A DNA stretch of 64,000 nt from Candidatus Gastranaerophilales bacterium (GCA_944322785.1 CALUPW010000001.1:186001-250000); one strand, 5' to 3'; positions 6,694-41,397 are shown, numbered from the stretch's first letter. The notes: generated from the sequence alone by a model not told the origin. Numbers and translations: made by a program.

Positions 6694-7090
6694 GGGGACG
6701 TTTTGGATTTGACAGGATGTTTCGGTTGGAACAGGCTGCGGGTCCGTGCGCTGTTCACGGTTATCAACGAGCAAAACAAATTAAATGCTAACAACGTAGT
6801 TGAAGCAGACTTCAGCAGAGCTTATGCAAAAGCTGCCTAGTTTGCGATTATAGCTCCTTGTAACGCCCAGCTTGCCGGTGTTATGAGGCCATCATGCAAG
6901 ACGCAGTGCAGTGATTGGCGGTAACTGCATCAAGACTTCCGTCAGGGGTTTAGAGTTTCCCTAAAATAAAACCAGAGGCTGATTTATAAGGTTTTGATTT
7001 TCCCCCGAATCGGCCAAAAAATGAAAATCTACACTCGTAGACGTCGGTTACAATCCATTTTGGACGCGGGTTCGACTCCCGCCGTCTCCA
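6694..7090 (+). ncRNA. ssrA: transfer-messenger RNA (tmRNA)
   Basis: The 5' end GGGGACG pairs with CGTCTCC at the 3' end (7083-7089) to form the 7-bp tRNA-like acceptor, followed by discriminator A7090. The T-arm GCGGGTTCGACTCCCGC is intact. The CCA end is not encoded and must be added. The tag reading frame runs from GCT 6787 to the TAG at 6838-6840 and encodes ANNVVEADFSRAYAKAA, a 17-residue degradation tag with the usual Ala-Ala end. The molecule (397 nt, one piece, not permuted) rescues stalled ribosomes together with SmpB, which is not in this window. Its 3' end is repeated at 9196-9211. Confidence 0.97.
7075..7090 (+). repeat. att-like direct repeat, copy 1 (3' end of tmRNA)
   Basis: The 16 bases ACTCCCGCCGTCTCCA, covering the T-stem 3' side and acceptor of tmRNA, are repeated exactly at 9196-9211. 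tmRNA 3' ends are well-known integration sites for phages and islands. Confidence 0.6.
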
Positions 7091-14678: not shown

Positions 14679-15409
14679 TCAGATTTTTCCGTTCTTGTCT
14701 GATAATCCTTTGTTTTATTTTGTTCGGGATTGGAGCTGCGATAATAAGTTTTGTTATTTTCCCGTGTATAGCTCTAACAAGACCGGAGGAAAAACGAAAA
14801 TATTTATATGCAGAAGTTATTCATAAAGCCTGGAATTGGTTTATAAGAGATTTACAGAGAATCGGGATTATAAAAATCAATGTTTCGGATATGGAAAGAC
14901 TTAAAAATTTATCGGGAAAGGTTATTGTTGCAAGCCATCCGACGTTCATTGATGTTGTAATTTTAATCGGATTAATTCCTAAATCAACCTGTCTTGCCAA
15001 AAAAGAAACTCTTAAAAATCCGTTATTTCGAAATATTGTAAAGTCTATTTATATTATTAACGATATAGATTTTGAAAAGTTAAAGGCCGATACGGACAGA
15101 TTTTTAAAGGAAGGGTTTAATATTATAATTTTTCCTTCAGGCACCAGAACCAAACCGGGGGAAGATTTTAAAATACACAAAGGTTCTGCAGCTATTGCCC
15201 TCAATTCAAATTCCGGAATTATTCCCGTAAAAATTACAACAGACTATCCTTTTTTGCAAAAAGGCCGGCCTGTTTATGACATAGGTGAAAAATACGTGAG
15301 CTATTATCTTGAAATAAAGCCTCAAATTGATGTAAACAAATATTCGGATATGCCACGGATCAAGGCTCGTAATTTTATTTGCGCACAAATTAAAGCCGAT
15401 ATTATTTGA
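14675..15409 (+). CDS. 1-acyl-glycerol-3-phosphate acyltransferase family protein (ApeD-type)
   Basis: 244 residues with an N-terminal membrane helix (residues 3-30). The acyltransferase HX4D motif is HPTFID (His about residue 88), and the substrate motif reads FPSGTRTKPG. Both match the PlsC family. In this context it probably transfers the polyene acyl chain from ACP to a membrane glycerolipid or an intermediate, so the pigment becomes membrane anchored (inference). AGGAG precedes the ATG. Confidence 0.85.
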   Translation: MIRFFRSCLIILCFILFGIGAAIISFVIFPCIALTRPEEKRKYLYAEVIHKAWNWFIRDLQRIGIIKINVSDMERLKNLSGKVIVASHPTFIDVVILIGLIPKSTCLAKKETLKNPLFRNIVKSIYIINDIDFEKLKADTDRFLKEGFNIIIFPSGTRTKPGEDFKIHKGSAAIALNSNSGIIPVKITTDYPFLQKGRPVYDIGEKYVSYYLEIKPQIDVNKYSDMPRIKARNFICAQIKADII

Positions 15410-15491
15410 CTTTGTTAACAAGTTAGATTATCATAAAAGAGAAAGGCAGGCGGATTTTAATAAATTGAACCGCCAAAAAGCAGGCTGGAAG

Positions 15492-15749
15492 ATGATTGTT
15501 GATGAAATAAAACAACTTATTATAGATACACTGGATTTGGAGGATATCACACCTCAGGATATTGATGAAAATGCGCCGCTCTTTATTGACGGTCTTGGAT
15601 TGGATTCAATAGACGCTCTCGAATTGGGAATGGCATTAAAGAAAAAATACAATCTCAAAATGGGTTCAAATAACGATGAAAATAAAGAATATTTTTATTC
15701 TGTAAAAACTCTTGCGGATTTTGTCGATTCTCAAACTAAACAGGGTTAA
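15492..15749 (+). CDS. acyl carrier protein 1 (ApeE-type)
   Basis: 85 residues from the ATG at 15492. The phosphopantetheine attachment serine is Ser39 in GLGLDSIDALEL. An in-frame TTG at 15465 would add nine residues, but the ATG start aligns with the usual ACP N-terminus (MIVDEIKQLIIDTLDLEDI). It carries the starter and/or growing chain as a thioester. It needs the phosphopantetheinyl transferase encoded at 21474. Confidence 0.88.
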   Translation: MIVDEIKQLIIDTLDLEDITPQDIDENAPLFIDGLGLDSIDALELGMALKKKYNLKMGSNNDENKEYFYSVKTLADFVDSQTKQG

Positions 15750-15752
15750 AGT

Positions 15753-16004
15753 ATGAGTGAAAAATTTACAAAAGAAAACATATTGAAACAACTTACTTCA
15801 ATACTTGTTGAAGACTTTGAAATTGATGAAAAACAGATTACGCCGGAGGCTCATTTGTTTGAAGATTTGGATTTGGACAGTATTGATGCAGTCGACCTTG
15901 CCGTGCGTGTTCAGCAGTTTACTGGGAAAAAAATTCCGCCGGAAAATTTTAAACAGATTAAAACAATTGAAGATGTTGTAAATGCGATTGAAGAACTGTT
16001 ATGA
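15753..16004 (+). CDS. acyl carrier protein 2 (ApeF-type)
   Basis: 83 residues with Ser43 in DLDLDSIDAVDLAV as the prosthetic-group site. It lies three bases after the first ACP gene and overlaps the next by four. Two dissimilar ACPs side by side are a hallmark of aryl polyene clusters, where one takes the aryl starter and the other the malonyl or extension chain; the assignment between the two is not decidable here. Confidence 0.9.
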   Translation: MSEKFTKENILKQLTSILVEDFEIDEKQITPEAHLFEDLDLDSIDAVDLAVRVQQFTGKKIPPENFKQIKTIEDVVNAIEELL

Positions 16005-16399
16005 AAGTAATTTTCCCTCTGATTTTTACATTTGTGGTAATTGGTGTTTTTCATTTTACACACCTTAATGCGCTTAAATTTTATCCGGCGCTTATAAATT
16101 TGTTAATATTTTCAATATTTTTTTCATCAACATTTACAAAAGAAACAATTATCCAGAAATTTGCCAGAATGATGGAAGGAAAAGAGCTGCCGGAAATTGT
16201 TAAAGATTATACCCGAAAACTCACATATATATGGTGCGTTTTTTTAATGTTTAATTTTATTCTTTCTTCTGCTACAATATTCATGAGTTCAAAAGTCTGG
16301 ACAATTTATAACGGATTTGTTTCATATTTTTTGACGGGGCTTTTATTTGCGGTCGAATATATTATACGACTCCGTTTTAAGAGAAAGCATAATGTTTAA
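16001..16399 (+). CDS. small polytopic membrane protein of the polyene cluster (ApeG-type)
   Basis: 132 residues with about four hydrophobic segments: residues 3-22, 27-44, 75-95 and 103-124. A conserved-looking cytoplasmic loop reads TKETIIQKFARMMEGKELPE. It resembles the COG4648-type membrane protein found next to the ACPs and ligase in characterised clusters; its role is unknown, perhaps anchoring the synthase to the membrane. Overlaps both neighbours. Confidence 0.7.
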   Translation: MKVIFPLIFTFVVIGVFHFTHLNALKFYPALINLLIFSIFFSSTFTKETIIQKFARMMEGKELPEIVKDYTRKLTYIWCVFLMFNFILSSATIFMSSKVWTIYNGFVSYFLTGLLFAVEYIIRLRFKRKHNV

Positions 16400-17948
16400 T
16401 TTTGGTGATGAAAAAGCATTAATAAAACATAACGGGTATGATTACAGTGCACAAGAAGTTAAAAAACTGATTTTGCCGCGTATTGCCTGGCTAAATATGC
16501 AAAAATGCAATAATTTGATTTTAACTGGTGAGGATAATTTTGAATTCGTTTTAAATTTTTTTGCCGGAATTTTTGCGGAAAAAGAGATTTTTCTTGTTGC
16601 CGACAAAACAAAAATTGAAACTTTCGGTGATGACTTCATAAAAAATATAGATCTTGCGGACTGTAAAAATTTGGAATTGAGAACACCGGATGCAAAGAAT
16701 GTTTTTATTAATTTGTTCACATCAGGGTCTACAGGTGAACCGAAACTAATTCGAAAAACACTTCAAAATCTCCTTAATGAGGCTGAAGATTTGATTAAAC
16801 AATTTCCGATACCAAAAGATTGTGTTTTTCTGACTACCGCCAAAATGTCACATATGTTTGGAATTGTTTTTGCTCTAATTTTCCCGCTTGCAAACGGAAA
16901 TCTTATTGATACAAATATGATAAAATTTCCGGAACAAATTAAATCGGATAATTTTGTTTTCATTACAACACCTTCATTTCTTGATAAAATGGCAAAATAC
17001 GACAACAATCCAAGAAAGCCGAAATATATTTTCACGGCAGGCGACAAACTTAACAATTCTGCTTTTGAGTATTTTGAAAAAGATTCAAATGTTGTTGAAA
17101 TTTACGGAAGTACCGAAAGCGGCACGGTTGCCTTCCGCACATCATCAAAAGATAGTTTTTTGACACCTTTAAAGAATGTTAAAGTCAGGGCGGATATAAA
17201 TAATCAAATTGTTGTTGAATCCCATTATTTTTTGGAAAATCTTTTAACATTAAATGATATTATTGAAAAATCAGGTAATAAATTCCGAATTCTCGGGCGT
17301 TCAGACAGGATTTTAAAAGTTCAGGAAAAAAGAATTTCTGCAGTTGAGCTGGAAAATATTTTAAATAAACATGAATTTATTGAAAATTCATACTGTCTTA
17401 AAACCGGAGAAAAAGTCGGTGCCGCAATTGTTTTAACCGGAAAAGGGCGGGAAAAACTTCTGGAAACAGGCTCTGCAGAATTGATAAAATTAATAAAGGC
17501 GTATGTAAAAAAATCTTCTGAAATAGTTCCGCAAAAGTGGCGTTTTTTGTATGAAATACCAAAAAATTCTGCCGGCAAAACAGACAAAACGAAAATTGAA
17601 AATATTTTCGGGCTGAATTTGTCAATGCCTTTTGTTATTGATAAAAAGATAACGGAAAATGGTGCTGAAATAAAACTGATATTTTTAAAGAACTCAAACT
17701 TTTTTAAAGGGCATTTCCCTGACGTTGCGATTTTGCCGGGAGTTGTCCAGTTATTTTTCGCACATTTTTTAGCAGAAGATGTGTTTGATGAAAAAATTTC
17801 AATGAAAAAAATAAAGAAAATTAAATTTTCCCGTGTTATAAAACCGGAAAGAGAAGTTATCTTAAAACTTAAAAATAGTGAATTGTCGGTTGATTTTATT
17901 TTTAAGGATTCTGAAAATCAGTTTTCATCCGGAACTTTTATAAAATAA
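16392..17948 (+). CDS. acyl-ACP/CoA ligase fused to a hotdog dehydratase (ApeH-ApeI-type fusion)
   Basis: 518 residues from the ATG at 16392 (an upstream in-frame ATG at 16347 lies inside the preceding gene). The AMP-binding domain has TSGSTGEPKLIRK (about residue 111), YGSTESG and GRSDR; a C-terminal KTDK supplies the catalytic lysine region. From about residue 415 a FabA/FabZ-like hotdog follows, with GHFPDVAILPGVVQLFFAHF (His about 440). The ligase would activate the aryl acid starter; the hotdog would dehydrate, or hydrolyse, chain intermediates. In enterobacterial clusters these are separate genes, so the fusion links the two steps physically. Confidence 0.85.
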   Translation: MFNFGDEKALIKHNGYDYSAQEVKKLILPRIAWLNMQKCNNLILTGEDNFEFVLNFFAGIFAEKEIFLVADKTKIETFGDDFIKNIDLADCKNLELRTPDAKNVFINLFTSGSTGEPKLIRKTLQNLLNEAEDLIKQFPIPKDCVFLTTAKMSHMFGIVFALIFPLANGNLIDTNMIKFPEQIKSDNFVFITTPSFLDKMAKYDNNPRKPKYIFTAGDKLNNSAFEYFEKDSNVVEIYGSTESGTVAFRTSSKDSFLTPLKNVKVRADINNQIVVESHYFLENLLTLNDIIEKSGNKFRILGRSDRILKVQEKRISAVELENILNKHEFIENSYCLKTGEKVGAAIVLTGKGREKLLETGSAELIKLIKAYVKKSSEIVPQKWRFLYEIPKNSAGKTDKTKIENIFGLNLSMPFVIDKKITENGAEIKLIFLKNSNFFKGHFPDVAILPGVVQLFFAHFLAEDVFDEKISMKKIKKIKFSRVIKPEREVILKLKNSELSVDFIFKDSENQFSSGTFIK

Positions 17949-31044: not shown

Positions 31045-31311
31045 ATGAAAGTTTATCCTGTTAATTTTACCTCTCAAAAAAGATACAATTCAAATCTCAA
31101 TATTAAAAAACACCAAACGCCGGTTCATGAAGGTTTGACAACCGCTGCTGCATGGTTTAGTTTCGGATTCGGACTGGATTTTGTGTCAAGAAAATGGGGA
31201 AACTTTACAAAATCTCCTCTTACAAATTCAATTATTTTGAACGGAATAATAGGTTCAGGAGCCGGAATATTTACAGGCGCAAAAGTTCTGCTAAACAAAA
31301 ATAAAAATTAA
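31045..31311 (+). CDS. small lineage-type membrane protein with N-terminal FTS motif
   Basis: 88 residues. The start KVYPVNFTSQKRYNSN resembles the short FKG/FTS-type N-termini of the proteins at 7687 and 41605. Two glycine-rich hydrophobic stretches (residues 33-50 and 65-82, NGIIGSGAGIFTGAKVLL) suggest membrane insertion. Function unknown. GATATT 6 bases before the ATG suggests a leaderless transcript. It ends 4 bases into the end of the convergent MlaA-fusion gene. Confidence 0.6.
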   Translation: MKVYPVNFTSQKRYNSNLNIKKHQTPVHEGLTTAAAWFSFGFGLDFVSRKWGNFTKSPLTNSIILNGIIGSGAGIFTGAKVLLNKNKN

Positions 31312-33506
31312 TTTACACTAATTATTTCATTTCCCTTTTCATTAATTTTATCTTTTATTTCATTTCGCAAATCTTCAAGAAATTCTGCTCTGTATAAAAA
31401 TCCTAAATGTGCACCGTTGTCATAATATACGGATTTGTTTTTTGTGTAAAGTTTCAGTTTCTTTAACTGTTCGTGGGTTGTCAAATAGTCATTTATTGAG
31501 TGGAAAATTACGTAATTTTCTCCGTTTTTTAAATAATCTGATAGTGAATGAAGGCTTGCTTCATAACGTAAATCATCTATAGTTTCGTTTTCTTCATTTA
31601 AAAGATATTTTTCCGCATAATCATGATAGCTCATGTTATTAATTTGCCGGTACAGTTCGTTTTTATTTTTAAAAGATTCATTTTCTATAGTATAAACAAG
31701 ATCCGACAGCTTTTGGTGCATGATAAAACCCGTAATAAGTTTTGCTTCATAATCTGAAAAAGGCAGTTCTTGAATTACTTTTCGTTTATCATCCTCCAGC
31801 TGTGAAATCTGTATAATCTTTGAAGCCGTAATTGCAACTCTTTCTTTTAAATTGTCAGGATTTCTTTCCCAGTCGCCGGCAGTTTTATCAACCTGTTCCA
31901 TTGCATAAATCAGTTCAACAGGCGGGCATATAGAAATATATTTTGTTATATTAAGAGTATTGTTTTTAAATTCTTTGTCCGCAAGAAAAAGTGCGGTTAA
32001 TGCGCCGAATGAAGTTCCGATTACCACTCTTTTATCAAATTGATAGTTATATTTGTTTTCAAGTTTTGTAATTATTTTGTTTGTAACGCTTTTTAAATAA
32101 TCAGCATCTCGGGAGGGAATTCCCGGGAAATAACCTTCGGGCATACTTCTGGCAAATTCCCACTGGAAAGCACTGCCCAGAATTATTACCGAATATCCTT
32201 CGTCATAAAACATTTTTGCAAGAAGCACAGAGTGGCTTGACATTATACCTTCGCCGATAGAAGGAAAGATTATTGCAAGGGGTGAAATCTTTCTGCCTTT
32301 TTGTAATATAAAACGAAATTTATAATCATCTCTGTCCGGTGACATATTGACCGAGGAAGTTTTAATTCTTTTGGCAAAACATCTGTTCCATATAGAAATT
32401 TCAGCCCAGATGGATTCGTCAACTCCCGGAAGGTCAAACAGTGCAGTTCTCATACTGTCTGTTACAGGTGTTTGCGGGTTGTAGTCAAAAAGAAGTTTGT
32501 CCGCCATAAGTCTGGAATTTTTTTCGTTATAAGCATTTAATACAGCAGAATCCGCATCATCACCTGCTTTTATGATTTCTGCAATCGATAATCTTTCACC
32601 GTCTTGAACTTCAATTTTATCTGCAACTTTCTTTTCATCAATTTCGGCATCCGTCAATTTTTGAGTTTCAATCTCGTTTTCAACGTCATTTTTTACAAGT
32701 TCGGGTTCTTCAGGATTATCAATGGTTTTGTTTTCTTTAATCAAATCAATTGCCGTATCAAGCACATCTTTTCTGTCCAGATTTCTGCATTTAATATAGT
32801 TTTCGACACCGTAAAGTTTTCTGGTTATGTCATAAGGATCTGCATAATTTGATTCAATCATTTTTATTAAGGGCTGCATGTAGGAGCTTCTGTTGACAAG
32901 AAGCCCTGCCTTAACAATTGCAAGAACCGGCGTGGCTATGTAACATGACGGGTTTAAAGCTGCATCCAGTGCACGTCCTGCAAGACCTCTGGGGCTTGTC
33001 CCGTTTATTACTGGACAAACCAGATAAGGGCCGGGTTTTACTTTGCATTTTGCAAAAGCCTGTTCCATATTTTCATTTGTCGGTTCTATTTTAAAAAATC
33101 TTTTGGCAGGATCATACATTCCTCCGAGTCCCAGAGTTGTGTTTGTCAAAAATCTTACGGTTTCATTTTTTGAAGTTTCAAAATCTTTTTGTATTAAACT
33201 GCTCACAAGACGTGCCGGATATTCAATGTTTGTTGCAATTCCTTTTATTCTGTCCATTCCGTATTTAGGCATTATTGATGCCCAGATTATATGCACCGGT
33301 CGAATTGCATATTTGTTCAGTCCGCAATTGAAATTAAACATTTTTCTGTTGAATTTTTCATATTTGTCATTTCCCAAATATTCGTAAACATAATCAGGGT
33401 ATTTTGATGGATATTTTATTGCCTCGTCTGCGTAAGTATAACTTTTTGCAAAGCTGATTATGCTTGCTGCGATAAAGATAAATAATAAAATTTTTCCTGA
33501 CTTCAT
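31308..33506 (-). CDS. MlaA/VacJ-like domain fused to an alpha/beta-hydrolase
   Basis: 732 residues with a signal peptide (residues 1-26) but no lipobox Cys, unlike typical MlaA. Residues about 50-250 match MlaA: KYEKFNRKMFNFNCGLNKYAI, ETSKNETVRFLTNTTLGLGG, GPYLVCPVINGTSPRGL. A variable acidic linker follows. Residues about 420-720 form an alpha/beta-hydrolase with the nucleophile elbow GTSFGA (about 497), a candidate acid in the HSINDYLTTHEQ region and a final HLGF histidine. MlaA extracts phospholipids from the outer membrane; the attached hydrolase could cut them there (inference). A permease-linked MCE protein is encoded at 45664. Confidence 0.8.
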   Translation of the reverse strand: MKSGKILLFIFIAASIISFAKSYTYADEAIKYPSKYPDYVYEYLGNDKYEKFNRKMFNFNCGLNKYAIRPVHIIWASIMPKYGMDRIKGIATNIEYPARLVSSLIQKDFETSKNETVRFLTNTTLGLGGMYDPAKRFFKIEPTNENMEQAFAKCKVKPGPYLVCPVINGTSPRGLAGRALDAALNPSCYIATPVLAIVKAGLLVNRSSYMQPLIKMIESNYADPYDITRKLYGVENYIKCRNLDRKDVLDTAIDLIKENKTIDNPEEPELVKNDVENEIETQKLTDAEIDEKKVADKIEVQDGERLSIAEIIKAGDDADSAVLNAYNEKNSRLMADKLLFDYNPQTPVTDSMRTALFDLPGVDESIWAEISIWNRCFAKRIKTSSVNMSPDRDDYKFRFILQKGRKISPLAIIFPSIGEGIMSSHSVLLAKMFYDEGYSVIILGSAFQWEFARSMPEGYFPGIPSRDADYLKSVTNKIITKLENKYNYQFDKRVVIGTSFGALTALFLADKEFKNNTLNITKYISICPPVELIYAMEQVDKTAGDWERNPDNLKERVAITASKIIQISQLEDDKRKVIQELPFSDYEAKLITGFIMHQKLSDLVYTIENESFKNKNELYRQINNMSYHDYAEKYLLNEENETIDDLRYEASLHSLSDYLKNGENYVIFHSINDYLTTHEQLKKLKLYTKNKSVYYDNGAHLGFLYRAEFLEDLRNEIKDKINEKGNEIISVN

Positions 33507-34974: not shown

Positions 34975-36516
34975 TTATGCGTAACTCCACCATTTCCAGT
35001 CAGGGACTGCTTCCCCGGGATAAAGCTTTTCAATGTGTTCAATAATAGCATTTTTTTCATCCGGTCCGTCTTCACGAAAACTATTTGGCATACCTAAATT
35101 CTCAGTAATAGGGGTTATCACCTCAAATTCATCACCTGCGATACTGTCATTATAGTCAGCACTTTGTGTGTAGGCGTAGTATTCACCCCACATGCAGCTT
35201 GCTATATAACGAAGTTTCATTGCATCATCTGTATAAGGACCTGCTGAAATTAATGAGGACAAGTTTTCAGAATAATAACTGTATTCGCTTGTGCTAAGTC
35301 CGCCTTTTGCATATAATCTGTCCAGTAATTCTTGTGTGGGCTGCCAGTAGTACGACCCATTGTATTCAACAAATGATGAATAAAGATAAGCAGTTGCATG
35401 CGTAAGTTCATGCACCAGTGTTTCAACAACCATATACCAGTTGCCACGTAACATTCTAATATCCATTGTTATGCCGGCATCAAACGTATCTGTATCATTA
35501 TCATAAAATATTGTTCTTATATTCTGTCCGTTATAGTTTTCTGTTTTGTATTTCGGTAAATATCCACCTTTTGTATAGGAGTCACCCTGTTTAAAATCAG
35601 GATTTAAATCGTCTGCGCCTATTTGTCCAACTGCTATTTGGTTGCCGTGTAAGTCAGGCATTTTAGTGAATCTGTCCAGAGCTTCTTTTTGTTCTTCCAA
35701 TCCGGCCGCTTTCAGATATTCCTCGGTTCTTGCAATTGCAAACTCTAATTTTCCTTGATCATCCAGTGATTCGTAATATGATTGAAGTTCATTGGCGTAG
35801 GCATCAACTTTGGCTTTGTAATCTTCAAAAGACTCGCCGAGTTCTTCTCCGATTAAGGCTTTTATTTCGTCCGCAGTCAGTGTGGAATCCGAATTTTCAT
35901 CAAGCATATTAAATATACGGTTTATTGTGCCGAAAAAGTCATGATGGCTGTCTTCCCAGTCGTCATTCTGTGTCAATTCAATCAACTGGCTGCGTTTAAT
36001 TCCGCCTGATTCAGTGATTTGAGAATCCTGTTCATGAAGCCAGTCAAACATGCTTTCGACATCGTAAAATTCATCTAAAAACGATGGTTTTGGTGTATCG
36101 TCAGGAGTTTCCGGCTCGGTTGAGCCTTCCGGTTTTTTGTGATGAAGGTCATAAATTATTTGTTTTATGTTGTCGACTTGAGAGGGTGGTATCCCGTCTA
36201 TTGTTATTGCAAATTGACTGTTCGCCTTGATGTTTGATACAGCTGGTGGTATTTTTTTTAAAATCCCCGTACAATTGCTTGCTTCAATGTCATCTGCTGC
36301 TGAGGATGTTACATTGTTCTTTGCGGCTTTATCTGCGATTGAATAAAGAGTCGCATTTTTATTTGCTTCAAGCATTTCATCAACGATACTTGAAGTTCCT
36401 TCCCTATCAATATTTCCCTGCTGAATACTCTGGTCATCCCCGCTATGTAAAGTTTTTATCTGTTGTTTAACGACCAATTGCAGCAACGGTAATTTTGTCT
36501 CTATACTGCTTTTCAT
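34975..36516 (-). CDS. putative HExxH metalloprotease with an EF-hand
   Basis: 513 residues without a signal peptide. A low-complexity N-terminal third is followed by a calcium-binding loop DENSDSTLTADE (about residue 212, EF-hand spacing) and by the zinc motif VETLVHELTHATAYL (about residue 367). Candidate third ligands lie in CMWGEYYAY and DEFEVITP. The family is not recognised. Large acidic Ser/Thr-rich regions suggest secretion by a route without a Sec signal. No Shine-Dalgarno is visible. Not in an operon. Confidence 0.6.
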   Translation of the reverse strand: MKSSIETKLPLLQLVVKQQIKTLHSGDDQSIQQGNIDREGTSSIVDEMLEANKNATLYSIADKAAKNNVTSSAADDIEASNCTGILKKIPPAVSNIKANSQFAITIDGIPPSQVDNIKQIIYDLHHKKPEGSTEPETPDDTPKPSFLDEFYDVESMFDWLHEQDSQITESGGIKRSQLIELTQNDDWEDSHHDFFGTINRIFNMLDENSDSTLTADEIKALIGEELGESFEDYKAKVDAYANELQSYYESLDDQGKLEFAIARTEEYLKAAGLEEQKEALDRFTKMPDLHGNQIAVGQIGADDLNPDFKQGDSYTKGGYLPKYKTENYNGQNIRTIFYDNDTDTFDAGITMDIRMLRGNWYMVVETLVHELTHATAYLYSSFVEYNGSYYWQPTQELLDRLYAKGGLSTSEYSYYSENLSSLISAGPYTDDAMKLRYIASCMWGEYYAYTQSADYNDSIAGDEFEVITPITENLGMPNSFREDGPDEKNAIIEHIEKLYPGEAVPDWKWWSYA

Positions 36517-36608: not shown

Positions 36609-37262
36609 TTAATTTTTGTAACGAAGCTGGTAATTTTCACCGCTGCCGTAAACCTCTAATGTTAAAGGTACTCCGTTGTAGCTTTTGGGCGGCGGATTGT
36701 ATTCCTTTACCGCAGAAAGCATTCTTTTTGCGGCATTTAACAGGGGTTTGTTTGCTGTATTTTGATAAAGTTTTTTTTGTTTCAATTTGCCGTGCTCATT
36801 TATTATGAATTGAATATCGCAGCTTCCGGCACCTTCAAGTCCGGTCATATCAAATTCGGACATAAGTGCATTTTTTAATCCGTTTTTATAGATATTTAAA
36901 TCGGCAAACGGATCTGTTTTTACCTGATAAGACGGGGTATCATCCCAGATTTGGTCAATATCCGGAATATCTTTTACAACAGTTTTTTCACTGGTATTAG
37001 GAACTTTTTCCCGTTTTTTAGGCTCCGGTCCCAGAAATAATACAAAACAAATTGAAAATATGCAGCATAATGAAAATATTGTTATTGAAAGCCAGCTGAC
37101 AGGCAGAAGAGGACGTTTTTTTACTACCTCAATTTCTTCCTCTGAATATGATTTTATCGGATTGACAGGTGCATCCGGAACTTCTTCAAATATATTATTT
37201 CCGCATTCGCAATAATCAACCTTTTCTTTATATAAAGTTTTACATTCTTTACATCTAAACAT
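36609..37262 (-). CDS. zinc-ribbon membrane protein with TonB/TolA-like C-terminal domain
   Basis: 217 residues. Residues 3-21 (CKECKTLYKEKVDYCEC) form a small zinc ribbon that would face the cytoplasm; a membrane helix lies at about 57-78. The C-terminal domain (ADLNIYKNGLKNALMSEF, SCDIQFIINEHGKLKQKKLYQN) has the TonB C-like pattern of a short strand-helix-strand unit that binds a partner in the periplasm. It ends the five-gene operon. A TATAAT box 10 bases before its ATG may give it an internal promoter. Confidence 0.65.
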   Translation of the reverse strand: MFRCKECKTLYKEKVDYCECGNNIFEEVPDAPVNPIKSYSEEEIEVVKKRPLLPVSWLSITIFSLCCIFSICFVLFLGPEPKKREKVPNTSEKTVVKDIPDIDQIWDDTPSYQVKTDPFADLNIYKNGLKNALMSEFDMTGLEGAGSCDIQFIINEHGKLKQKKLYQNTANKPLLNAAKRMLSAVKEYNPPPKSYNGVPLTLEVYGSGENYQLRYKN

Positions 37263-37283
37263 TTCTGTATTTATTATACCATA

Positions 37284-37427
37284 TTATCTTTTAATTTTCA
37301 CGTTTATGATTTCCAGCAAAAAAGATTTATGAAGCTGCGGTTTTAGTCCGGCAATAATAAAGGTTGTACCGAACATAGCAACAACAAGCGCAAGTATTGC
37401 TGTAATTAAAAAAGTTTTTTTGTTCAT
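37284..37427 (-). CDS. 47-residue single-span membrane protein
   Basis: Starts MNKKTFLITAILALVVAMFG, with one membrane helix (residues 5-28) and a short basic tail ending VKIKR. Its ATG overlaps the stop codon of the upstream gene (ATGA), and the next gene starts 21 bases after it, so it sits inside the operon and is translated with it. Function unknown; a small assembly or regulatory subunit of the membrane complex would fit. Confidence 0.75.
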   Translation of the reverse strand: MNKKTFLITAILALVVAMFGTTFIIAGLKPQLHKSFLLEIINVKIKR

Positions 37428-38320
37428 AACCTTACCCTTTCATAATCCGAATAATCTGACGGTGATGAGTAATGTGTTTGATAGTCAAGGATAAATCCGC
37501 CTTTAAAACGGACTTTTGTTCTCTTGGTATTTTCCGGAAAATTAAGGACTTCATCCCCTTCCAATCTTTTTAACACACTTATCATGTCAGCTTTTGCATT
37601 ATCTGCATATTTTTTGTTTGTACAATTATAGTTGAGATTTGTTATATGGCCTGTTTCGGATACGTCAAAGCTGAAAAGAATTAATGTCCCGACCGGTGCT
37701 TCTATTGCCGATTCATCCATTATCCTGTTTTGGAGAGTGCTTCTCCATACGTTCCAGGCAACAATTTCTTCTTTTGAAGCCTTAAATTTACGGTTTCCTA
37801 CTTCATCACTTGCATTTAATTCAACGTTATCCTCAGGAATTTCCATGGTCATTTCATGTTCTGCTGTCGGCCGCTGGAGTTCTGCTACTTCCAAATCCTG
37901 TTCGGTAAACAGCATTTCCTGATCGGAAAAATTAATATCCTGTTCCTGATATGATTGTTGATTTTCTTCTAAAGTCATATCCAATCCGGTAGTTGACTCT
38001 GTTGTTTCAAATCCGGTTTCAATATGACTTTCTCTTATATCGCCGCCTGTTTGAACATCAAAGGAAAGCTGTTTATCATCATCAGGTTTTATATGTATTG
38101 TTTTTTCGGGTGTTTTTGCAATATTTTTTTGCACCCGCATAAATTTAACTTTAACTTCAAAATCCGAAACTATTCTTGTCTGCGGGTTCATAAGCTGGTC
38201 TTTTATTTTGAAGTTCATATTTTCAAGCGTAACCGGTTTGTGCATTACAGGATGAATTATCAAAACCAGTACTGTCATAAATATATATAAAAATATTACG
38301 AATTTTTTTATACGCTTCAT
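37424..38320 (-). CDS. TonB/TolA-like energy-transducer protein
   Basis: 298 residues. A membrane anchor (residues 5-24) is followed by a long acidic Glu/Gln-rich linker (about 90-190) instead of the proline-rich rod of classic TonB. The C-terminal domain from about residue 190 (IVAWNVWRSTLQNRIMDES, LILFSFDVSETGHITNLNY, DMISVLKRLEG) matches the TonB/TolA C-terminal pattern. It would span the periplasm. No ExbB/ExbD genes are in this window; the upstream polytopic protein may take that place (inference). Confidence 0.65.
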   Translation of the reverse strand: MKRIKKFVIFLYIFMTVLVLIIHPVMHKPVTLENMNFKIKDQLMNPQTRIVSDFEVKVKFMRVQKNIAKTPEKTIHIKPDDDKQLSFDVQTGGDIRESHIETGFETTESTTGLDMTLEENQQSYQEQDINFSDQEMLFTEQDLEVAELQRPTAEHEMTMEIPEDNVELNASDEVGNRKFKASKEEIVAWNVWRSTLQNRIMDESAIEAPVGTLILFSFDVSETGHITNLNYNCTNKKYADNAKADMISVLKRLEGDEVLNFPENTKRTKVRFKGGFILDYQTHYSSPSDYSDYERVRL

Positions 38321-38332
38321 TTTTCATCATTT

Positions 38333-39943
38333 CTAGTCTTTATCTAGTTTTGCGATTAATTCATCGCTTGCATAGATATCAAACATTGTTTGTGAAAGCA
38401 TAAAGGTTTCTGCAATCAACAAGGCTGTCGGAACAAGAGCGGCAACAAAGCTTAAAAACAGACCTTGCAAATCTCCGCCGATTTCGGTTGCAAAGTAGGA
38501 AATGTTCATTGTAAATTCAATAAAGATAATTGAACAACCGATGAAAAGAGAGCGGCGTCTGTCAGATTCAAGCTTTCTGGTACCTTCAAGCCCGAAGATG
38601 CTGACACCGTGCTGTCTGTAGTCACTGAAACCGTCTTGCTTTATAACCTGAGAAGCCTGAATTTTTTTTGTTGCAGTGAATGCGGCAACAAATGAAAAGA
38701 ATGCAAAGATAATCAAAAATGTTGCAAGAACCAGAAATACCGGTGAAAATCTTAAACCTGAAATTCTTATCCAGCCTGCAGCTTCGGGGAAGCACATCGC
38801 AAGTGTATTGGAAACACCGTATGCAAGAAACGGTGCGGTTAAAATACCGATTACGATTTCACCGGTGGATTTCAATTGCAGGTTAAAAATTCTGTCTTTA
38901 ATATTTTGGATTTTTGTTTTGGAAAAGCTGTTTATATATCTTTCAATCCATTGTCTGTAAGATTTAAGAACAGATTCAAAGTCTTCACGATATTCATATT
39001 TGTTAAGTGTCATTGCCCATTCGCCTGAGGTATGTTTAAAGTATCCGCAGCCGAGTGAAAGAGCAGTCAAAAGTCCGGAGAAGAAAAGCGAAATAAATAC
39101 CGCAAATGTGACAAAATCGTTTAAGTTCATATAATAAACAAGGTTTACAACATAAATCCCCAGCATAAATATAAGGGCAAGAACTACCATAAATCCTTGT
39201 GCAAAGCGTGCAGTCGGGGAAACGTTTTTGTCATTTGAGCTTTGTAAGAACAGATAAACCCCCTGTTTTAAAAGCAATGCTGCGCCGAATACAAGGATTG
39301 AATATGCAACCCATACTTTGATATTTGTCGGCATATGAAGATAATTTGCCGATTCTTTTATTGACAATCCCATAAGGTAGTTGGCAAGACCGAATGCGCA
39401 AAGTATTGAACTGATTGCCATTGCAACATGTAAAAATATATTTGTTCTTGTATTGGAGCCGATTTTGTTTTTCAAATCGTTTATCTGAAAGGCGACCTGT
39501 TTAATGATTGCGACTCTCATTCCTTCAATATCAGCTCTTTGTTTTTCGAGTTTTAATCTTGTTACGGCATTGGGGTCATTGCCGTAAAGTTTTTTCATAT
39601 CTTCTTCGGTCAAATCTTCTTTTGCAATTGTTGTAACAGTTTTTTTAACAGGTGCATTCTCAAGAATTTTTATGTTTATAAATTCGCTGCAGTCGGCAAA
39701 CATTATTTTACAAATATTCCCGATTTCGACTTTTTTAATCGGCTGTCCTTTAAAAAGCACTCTTTCATTATGGAATGTGTTCATTAAAACACATTTGTTT
39801 TCGTCTTTGTCGTACTGGAGAGTAAGAAGAACGTCAAAATCTAAATCCAGCTGAAAGTCACAATTCGGGTTCGTGCCGATATTAATTACATCTTTTTCAT
39901 CAAAGATTTTTTCATGTTTTGAAGATGATACAACAATTGTCAT
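38333..39943 (-). CDS. polytopic membrane protein with N-terminal FHA-like domain
   Basis: 536 residues. Residues 1-95 look like a forkhead-associated fold (VINIGTNPNCDFQLDLDFD, then MNTFHNERVLFKGQPI for the asparagine-containing loop), but the Arg and Ser/His of the phosphothreonine pocket are not evident, so it may not bind phosphopeptides. A short linker and about eight membrane helices follow in pairs (e.g. 175-192, 208-230, 250-275). The membrane part is not a recognised transporter. It sits between the vWA gene and the TonB-like genes in one operon. Confidence 0.6.
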   Translation of the reverse strand: MTIVVSSSKHEKIFDEKDVINIGTNPNCDFQLDLDFDVLLTLQYDKDENKCVLMNTFHNERVLFKGQPIKKVEIGNICKIMFADCSEFINIKILENAPVKKTVTTIAKEDLTEEDMKKLYGNDPNAVTRLKLEKQRADIEGMRVAIIKQVAFQINDLKNKIGSNTRTNIFLHVAMAISSILCAFGLANYLMGLSIKESANYLHMPTNIKVWVAYSILVFGAALLLKQGVYLFLQSSNDKNVSPTARFAQGFMVVLALIFMLGIYVVNLVYYMNLNDFVTFAVFISLFFSGLLTALSLGCGYFKHTSGEWAMTLNKYEYREDFESVLKSYRQWIERYINSFSKTKIQNIKDRIFNLQLKSTGEIVIGILTAPFLAYGVSNTLAMCFPEAAGWIRISGLRFSPVFLVLATFLIIFAFFSFVAAFTATKKIQASQVIKQDGFSDYRQHGVSIFGLEGTRKLESDRRRSLFIGCSIIFIEFTMNISYFATEIGGDLQGLFLSFVAALVPTALLIAETFMLSQTMFDIYASDELIAKLDKD

Positions 39944-39978
39944 AAAAATTTCCTCATATTAAAGTAATAAAATATTTG

Positions 39979-40650
39979 TTATCTGCCGAGGGCATGGATA
40001 AATTGTCTGATTGCTTTGTCAGAATTTTGTTCCGGTGAAACAATAAGCTGTTTTTCACCCAGAACCGGATTAAGTTTTTCTTTAACCATATCCAGTTTTT
40101 CCGGATGTGCGTACAAAAACATCATTGCAAGACCGGGCATATATTGTTTAGCATTTTCGACATTTTTAGGAAGAAGTTCCCAGTTAATTTGTTTTTCAAT
40201 AGCACCTTCGTTTTCCAAATCTCCCAGAACAACGATTGCGGGACGATAACCTTCTTTTTGCATTGCAAGAGCGTGGTTAAAGCCTTTTTTCAATCCAACA
40301 CCGTAGGCTGTGCCGTAATCATTGCTGTCATAGGCAGTAAATGCATCCAGAGCTTTTGTTATACCGGAATTGTTAAAGGGAGTTCCTTCATAGATTAAAT
40401 AGGCATCCTCAGATACTCTCAAAATTTTAATCTGATCTTCCGGATCAAGAAGGTTGCATATTTGACGTAAAGTTTTTTTCTGATCATCCAGAGCCTTCTG
40501 GTTTGATGCGGATGAATCTATCAAAAACATTACAGCTGCAGGTTTGAAATCATCAACTTTTACTCTTGACATAGCCGACCATAATAATTTGCCCACAATA
40601 GAGAGGGCAACTATCAAAATTCCTAATATAATTAATCTTTTATTATTCAT
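39979..40650 (-). CDS. membrane-anchored von Willebrand factor A domain protein
   Basis: 223 residues. A membrane helix (residues 6-25) is followed by a vWA domain that begins AAVMFLIDSSASNQKALDD with an intact MIDAS D-x-S-x-S (Asp45-Ser47-Ser49); the second MIDAS loops are in NDYGTAYGVGLKKG and VLGDLENEG. The domain would bind a protein partner through a metal ion on the outside. It is the first gene of the five-gene operon, with GAGAG before the ATG and 35 bases to the next gene. Confidence 0.8.
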   Translation of the reverse strand: MNNKRLIILGILIVALSIVGKLLWSAMSRVKVDDFKPAAVMFLIDSSASNQKALDDQKKTLRQICNLLDPEDQIKILRVSEDAYLIYEGTPFNNSGITKALDAFTAYDSNDYGTAYGVGLKKGFNHALAMQKEGYRPAIVVLGDLENEGAIEKQINWELLPKNVENAKQYMPGLAMMFLYAHPEKLDMVKEKLNPVLGEKQLIVSPEQNSDKAIRQFIHALGR

Positions 40651-40791: not shown

Positions 40792-41397
40792 ATGGAAAAA
40801 TATTTGGAAATATTTGCGGTTATTTTAGGGGCGTATTTAATCGGTTCCATTCCGACAGGATATATTATTGTAAAGCTTGCTACAGGGCAGGATATCAGAA
40901 CAATAGGATCCGGCTCAACCGGTGCAACAAACGTTAAAAGAGTTATGGGGAAAAAATGGTTCTTTATAACGCTTCTTCTTGATGCATTTAAAGGTGCATT
41001 ACCTGTTGTTCTTGCAGCCCTCTTTGCATCAAATTTTACGGATATCGGACTTTTGCCTGTGCTTGCAGCTGTTGCAGTTATTTTGGGACACAGCAAATCT
41101 GTTTTTCTTAAATTTACCGGCGGTAAATCCGTAGCATCAGGTGTCGGAACAATTCTTGCACTAAACTGGATTGTCGGACTTATTATTGCCGCAATCTGGG
41201 GAATAATTACATACACATCAAAATATGTTTCTTTAGGTTCAATAATCGCACTGGCAATTTCTCCTTTTTTGATGTATTTCTTTAATCAGCCTGTTGCATA
41301 TATTGTTTATTGTGCACTTGGTGCAATTTATATAATATATCTTCACCGTTCAAATATTCAAAGACTGATTAAGGGTGAAGAAAACAAGGTAAGATAA
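40792..41397 (+). CDS. plsY: glycerol-3-phosphate acyltransferase PlsY
   Basis: 201 residues with five to six membrane helices. LIGSIPTGYIIVKLATGQDI, IGSGSTGATNVKRVMGKK and the KFTGGKSVASGVGTIL block are the three conserved PlsY motifs. It acylates glycerol-3-phosphate from acyl-phosphate in the first step of phospholipid synthesis. AAGGAG precedes the ATG. A small membrane protein gene follows after 2 bases. Confidence 0.96.
   Translation: MEKYLEIFAVILGAYLIGSIPTGYIIVKLATGQDIRTIGSGSTGATNVKRVMGKKWFFITLLLDAFKGALPVVLAALFASNFTDIGLLPVLAAVAVILGHSKSVFLKFTGGKSVASGVGTILALNWIVGLIIAAIWGIITYTSKYVSLGSIIALAISPFLMYFFNQPVAYIVYCALGAIYIIYLHRSNIQRLIKGEENKVR

Follow-up and report, generated by a model that had tools for sequence, protein, structure and literature searches.

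A conserved vWA, FHA and TonB-like operon encoding a candidate envelope system in gut Gastranaerophilales

A five-gene operon predicted to encode an envelope complex was analysed in a 64,000-nt stretch of DNA (i.e. the window) from Candidatus Gastranaerophilales bacterium (GCA_944322785.1 CALUPW010000001.1:186001-250000). The host is a gut member of the Gastranaerophilales ("Melainabacteria") with a genome of 1.95 Mb, and relatives with the same genes carry the names Candidatus Gastranaerophilales or Melainabacteria. Five minus-strand open reading frames (ORFs) span positions 36609-40650 in the order vWA > FHA-8TM > TonA > peptide > ZnTonB, with intergenic gaps of 35, 12, -4 and 21 bases, exactly where a preliminary description of this DNA had placed five same-strand genes separated by -4 to 35 bases. 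No significant Pfam family was detected for FHA-8TM, TonA or the peptide. Scans for consensus promoters (24 promoter-like sites versus 17.6 expected) and terminators (one site versus 3.8 expected) were uninformative. The features, with transmembrane abbreviated to TM, are as follows:

39979-40650, minus strand: vWA protein, 223 residues (ORF; PF13519, E 4.7e-8; PF00092, E 6.2e-6)
40504-40518, minus strand: MIDAS motif DxSxS, DSSAS at vWA residues 45-49 (sequence and alignment)
38333-39943, minus strand: FHA-8TM protein, 536 residues, proposed hub (ORF; alignment; AlphaFold2 models)
39650-39943, minus strand: predicted degenerate FHA domain, residues 1-98 (VIA-align Z 13.1, root-mean-square deviation 2.1 over 93 residues, against Rv1747 FHA-1)
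38333-39610, minus strand: predicted 8-TM membrane domain, residues 112-536 (AlphaFold2 pLDDT 87.2, pTM 0.81)
37424-38320, minus strand: TonA, 298 residues (ORF; hhalign 92% to ZnTonB)
37284-37427, minus strand: single-span peptide, 47 residues (ORF; hhalign 97% to TonA N-termini)
36609-37262, minus strand: ZnTonB, 217 residues, with zinc ribbon, TM segment and TonB_C-like domain (ORF; TonB_2 matches in homologues)
37188-37262, minus strand: zinc ribbon CxxC...CxCG of ZnTonB, residues 1-25 (alignment)
36654-36878, minus strand: TonB_C/TonB_2-like domain of ZnTonB, residues 129-203 (PF03544, E 0.0079; PF13103, E 0.047)

The operon is real and conserved as a unit. All five genes were found in the same order in 14 of 14 genomes of the genus, a conservation of gene order far beyond chance. 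A wider set of 80 named loci was taken from species-level genomes; as these were the best-matching loci, the set favours close relatives. Within this set, the vWA gene lay directly upstream of the FHA gene at all 76 testable loci and TonA lay downstream of the FHA gene at 70 of 70, with ZnTonB following at 61 of 70, whilst the 47-residue peptide was found at 48 of the 80. The commonest arrangement (24 of 80 loci) was TrbI-like > vWA > FHA > TonA > peptide > ZnTonB. Among 40 relative genomes, the vWA and FHA genes co-occurred in an identical 22 and were both absent from the other 18. The genes are therefore kept together in relatives, which the preliminary description had proposed as a check. 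One locus (L025:3412-4201, minus strand, genome G019) has ZnTonB split into two overlapping ORFs, i.e. a frameshift or an assembly error. Another genome has three unrelated genes between FHA and TonA (L186:10097-12516 and 15185-17660) and encodes two signal-peptide proteins bearing the TonA-like head alone. Some homologues seemed to contain in-frame stops, but in the one case checked (G199, L184) the match had simply taken in the terminal stop codon.

The FHA profile was matched by 138 of 289 genomes in a class sample, the matches listed all falling within one family, and a phylum sample (E <=0.1) yielded a single marginal match (E 0.055) outside that family; across both samples, the system is known from a single bacterial family. 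Eight of the 138 matches resemble a stand-alone FHA domain, and four of these eight were inspected. In one genus, the FHA domain occurs alone as a gene of 99 codons, with no 8-TM part and beside a conserved set of other genes (L176:8039-8338, L177:7887-8186, L178:342-641 and L179:7521-7820). A defence or phage origin was examined and nothing convincing was found in PADLOC or PHROGs, nor was there any plasmid match for the system genes. One IMG/VR contig (L219) bears system genes beside a serine recombinase, and its otherwise ordinary bacterial gene content makes it look like host DNA. The operon is apparently undescribed: a PMC search on the domain combination returned no paper describing it and, in line with the preliminary description, no named system with this gene set was present in the libraries and papers searched.

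The proposed hub of the system was examined by structure prediction. In an AlphaFold2 model of the full FHA-8TM protein, residues 1-98 are predicted to adopt a genuine, albeit degenerate, FHA fold (Z 13.1), bearing out the FHA-like front first read from the sequence, and the topology would place this domain in the cytoplasm. Canonical FHA domains bind phosphothreonine through the residues GR...SxxH...N. An alignment of 32 rows exhibited no Arg after the strand-3 IG and no conservation of the Ser and His positions, indicating that the domain is probably a docking domain. The membrane domain, which was modelled alone with 62 homologues, was predicted with good confidence, and the model helices and hydropathy together suggest eight TM segments. 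The predicted segments include invariant E476 and K226, together with E512 and E362 at 98% conservation; neighbouring T and P residues are conserved as well. Searches with the 8-TM fold revealed no clear relative, the top Foldseek match having E 0.028 and the highest VIA score (Z 7.3) being to unrelated chains; the TolQ/ExbB fold was absent among the fold matches listed. The idea that this 536-residue protein might supply the ExbB role found no backing in sequence, as PF01618 (MotA/TolQ/ExbB) matched none of the 62 homologues at E <=0.1. Nor does FHA-8TM match a known transporter family by Pfam, NCBIfam or PDB fold search, in support of the preliminary description. A regulated transporter or channel, with solute movement through the 8-TM domain under the gating control of the other proteins, would account for a polytopic protein with conserved charged TM residues; this is highly improbable given the lack of a family or fold match, and it would leave the TonB-like arms unexplained.

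The gene upstream encodes a protein with a single N-terminal membrane anchor followed by a vWA domain, which the predicted topology would place in the periplasm. The intact MIDAS described from the sequence was confirmed (DSSAS), with DxSxS retained in 76 of 79 homologues. Published vWA force transducers carry either the SHLS motif in their anchor or, encoded beside a TolQ gene, a transpore helix that contains Asp (PMC12204202). The anchored vWA protein fits neither class: S-x3-H occurs in 2 of 79 homologues, and none of the 79 has an acidic residue within its TM core. As in those systems (PMC12204202), an inner-membrane-tethered vWA gene is in tight synteny with a polytopic gene and has no ExbD beside it. 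The partner here differs in being an FHA-8TM protein that is not TolQ-like by sequence, the anchor lacks both SHLS and the aspartate, and the section of that paper on vWA force transducers lists other phyla.

TonA comprises a TM anchor, an HPVMHK juxtamembrane motif, a long acidic linker and a TonB-like C-terminal domain (approximately residues 187-282). Its assignment as TonB/TolA-like stands in part: the TonA and ZnTonB profiles are related (hhalign 92%), whereas Pfam does not recognize TonA as TonB-like and the direct comparison with TolA gave only 2%, so that the assignment is weaker. For ZnTonB, the zinc ribbon already noted by the preliminary description is kept in 66 of 71 homologues. 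TonB_2 was matched by 14 of 17 homologues (best E 1.4e-8), far more strongly than by the window copy, and the C-terminal domain resembles that of the genome's TolA (hhalign 92.8%). PDB sequence searches with the FHA, TrbI-like, TonA and ZnTonB profiles returned only weak TonB matches, for ZnTonB. When profiles were compared, the 47-residue peptide aligned with the anchor of TonA and its P-x-M-H-K segment (97% and E 4.4e-11 by hhalign; E values as low as 2.7e-11 by hmmsearch), indicating that it is a headless TonA, i.e. a paralogue of the anchor and juxtamembrane motif with no linker or head, and a real conserved gene.

Known TonB/Tol-type arms depend on ExbB/TolQ-family motors. No ExbB/ExbD genes were seen within the FHA operon but a canonical TrbI-like > TolA > ExbB > ExbD > ExbD operon is present on contig C2 of the same genome (G000, L145:9581-13303, minus strand), so the earlier statement that no motor accompanies these genes is true of the locus only. 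A MotA/ExbB-family protein was detected in 28 of 28 family genomes, irrespective of whether they have the FHA operon. TolA and TonB bind their motors via an SHLS motif (PMC12204202). Of 16 near-complete TolA proteins from ExbB operons, 14 have S-x3-H, yet the motif is nearly absent from the arms (1 of 80 TonA, 2 of 71 ZnTonB and 0 of 48 peptides), which argues that TonA and ZnTonB are unlikely to be standard ExbBD clients. TonA and ZnTonB could nonetheless be ordinary in-trans clients of the housekeeping ExbB-ExbD-ExbD motor, much as GltG is of AglRQS. The presence of a motor-family protein in all 28 family genomes and the likeness of the ZnTonB C-terminus to the TolA of the ExbB operon are consistent with this explanation, as is the finding that Myxococcus GltG, which carries FHA and TonB on one bitopic protein, contacts the ExbB-like motor component AglR (PMC3169522). 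The near loss of S-x3-H from TonA, ZnTonB and the peptide, yet not from TolA, and the equal presence of the motor in genomes devoid of the operon make it unlikely.

TonB-like arms that lack the docking motif and are always accompanied by a vWA protein and an 8-TM protein of unrecognized fold imply either that such arms can be energy-free or that their motor is unrecognized. A doubtful proposal is that FHA-8TM takes the place of ExbB/TolQ as a motor, using protons or ions to drive the vWA protein and TonB-like arms. The lack of ExbB/ExbD at the loci and of the docking motif in the arms would fit, as would the invariant E476 and near-invariant E512 and E362 with their neighbouring T and P residues, and the obligate pairing with a membrane-tethered vWA protein resembles the published vWA-TolQ pairs (PMC12204202). 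Conversely, no MotA/ExbB sequence match or listed TolQ-like fold was obtained, the vWA anchor is devoid of the acidic residue of the published proton-binding helix, and many proteins that are not motors also have conserved TM glutamates. It is quite doubtful that FHA-8TM is a previously unknown ion-driven inner-membrane motor powering a tethered vWA protein and two TonB-like arms; if true, this bacterial family would have a second, ExbBD-independent way of doing work at the cell surface.

A second operon was found in the same genome (contig C3, L042), encoding a TrbI-like protein (437 residues), an FHA-8TM protein 49% identical to the window copy, TonA and a longer ZnTonB, and adjoining four oppositely oriented genes for exported vWA proteins. 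The order in single-copy genera is TrbI-like > vWA > FHA > TonA > ZnTonB. The simplest reading would be that the operon was duplicated in the genus, with later loss of the TrbI-like gene from the window copy and of the anchored vWA gene from the other. At many loci, the TrbI-like exported protein is encoded by a sixth gene in front of the operon. The second-copy protein is homologous to the protein heading the genome's TolA-ExbB operon (30% identity, E 3e-23; hhalign 99.9%), and this tie links the FHA operon to Tol-type envelope systems. The name denotes resemblance only, the best PF03743 match of this partner (par437) being 26.3 bits (E 7.6e-6) for one member, below the cut-off of 35. These proteins have signal-like N-termini and a Gly-rich hydrophobic C-terminal part. 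The preliminary description was partly supported overall, its envelope system being upheld; it had missed the TrbI-like sixth gene, the second copy with its exported vWA genes and the identity of the peptide as a headless TonA.

Exported vWA genes adjoin the second copy and several single copies. DxSxS was kept in 28 of 28 of the proteins examined, and a Y-[KE]-[FY]-[IVL] tail lies at or near the end in 27 of 28. As a general sorting signal this tail was rejected: it is not clearly enriched elsewhere in the host's own genome, with six matches as compared to three for the control, and two of the six are vWA genes. The shared tail, the flanking positions of these genes and the Gly-rich hydrophobic part of the TrbI-like protein would suit a secretion or display machine with exported vWA proteins as cargo and the TrbI-like protein as outer-membrane channel. 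Such a machine is improbable: the loci encode no ATPase, an exported vWA gene is missing from the neighbourhood of most of the 80 loci, and the tail counts give little separation from the control. A membrane complex of a type VI secretion system (T6SS) was likewise discarded, the sheath gene TssC/VipB (PF05943) being absent from 16 of 16 genomes. TssNQOPR of Bacteroidota T6SSiii comprises five envelope proteins, including a polytopic protein with a cytoplasmic domain, single-span periplasmic proteins and a vWA fold (PMC10781749). The mix of proteins is comparable to that found here but TssN has five TM helices and TssR is a lipoprotein.

Similar domains are used in Myxococcus gliding, for which the AglR-AglQ-AglS motor works together with the core genes GltD/E/G/C (PMC3169522); SjdR and GltJ, the latter with a TonB_C-type domain, are discussed elsewhere (PMC8262864). 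The operon shares with Agl-Glt an FHA domain (GltG), TonB_C-type domains (GltG and GltJ) and a vWA adhesin (CglB). It differs in carrying the FHA domain on an 8-TM protein, in having no dedicated AglRQS motor at the loci and in its gene set. A machine for gliding-like movement over surfaces, akin to Agl-Glt, would draw on these shared domain kinds and on the greater frequency of the system where flagellar FliG is missing: of the 130 class-sample genomes that have the full FHA protein, 23 carry FliG, as do 15 of the 20 listed family genomes without it. This trend is confounded by kinship and is not exclusive, with both present in nine genera. Moreover, no Glt TPR or barrel genes were recognized in the operon and no gliding has been reported for the group in the papers found, leaving a motility machine quite improbable.

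The reading that we prefer, and to which we give about an even chance, is that the operon encodes an inner-membrane complex spanning the periplasm, i.e. a trans-envelope tether or force transducer with FHA-8TM as its hub. The anchored vWA protein would be the obligate partner of the hub, and TonA and ZnTonB would act as arms carrying TonB_C-like heads towards peptidoglycan or the outer membrane. The headless TonA may occupy or adjust the docking site of TonA, whilst the cytoplasmic FHA domain, lacking the phosphothreonine residues, and the zinc ribbon are likely protein-docking sites. In many relatives, a further partner on the outer-membrane side could be the TrbI-like exported protein. Conventional drive by ExbBD is improbable, and the complex may be either a passive tether or hub-powered; its job would most likely be surface attachment or envelope coupling with MIDAS-bearing vWA proteins. 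The parallels with Tol/TonB (TolQRA, ExbBD-TonB) are the single-span arms, the periplasmic linker, the TonB_C-like head and the TrbI-like homologue that heads this genome's own TolA-ExbB-ExbD-ExbD operon; the operon is unlike them in having FHA-8TM and vWA in place of ExbB/ExbD, in loss of the docking motif and in the cytoplasmic zinc ribbon.

Several points weigh against a tether of this kind. About half of the sampled class genomes, some in the same family, live without the system, and no TrbI-like gene lies beside the window copy. Placing the TrbI-like protein at the outer membrane is a guess that draws on a weak Pfam match and signal-like N-termini, and the suggested TonB fold of TonA derives from one indirect profile match, via ZnTonB. 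The analysis establishes the operon, its conservation, the folds, the loss of the motif and the second copy; complex formation, tethering and a surface role are inferred. The operon is conserved, is present twice in one genus and belongs to common, poorly understood gut bacteria, in which it could show a new way of linking the two bacterial membranes.

Other genes of the window were also noted. A divergent PlsY-like gene (40792-41397, plus strand) lies beside the operon in genus g1 loci and some other genera. A gene 92 bases downstream of ZnTonB (34975-36516, minus strand) encodes a 513-residue protein that has a zinc-protease-like motif, HELTH, and matches the EF hand weakly; among the other loci of the genus that were read, only L027 and L030 have this gene beside the operon. 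A 732-residue fusion of an MlaA lipoprotein domain (E 3.3e-42) and a C-terminal alpha/beta-hydrolase-like domain (E 3e-4) is encoded at 31308-33506 (minus strand) and also adjoins the operon in several relatives. At 6694-7090 (plus strand), the window carries a tmRNA gene with the tag ANNVVEADFSRAYAKAA.

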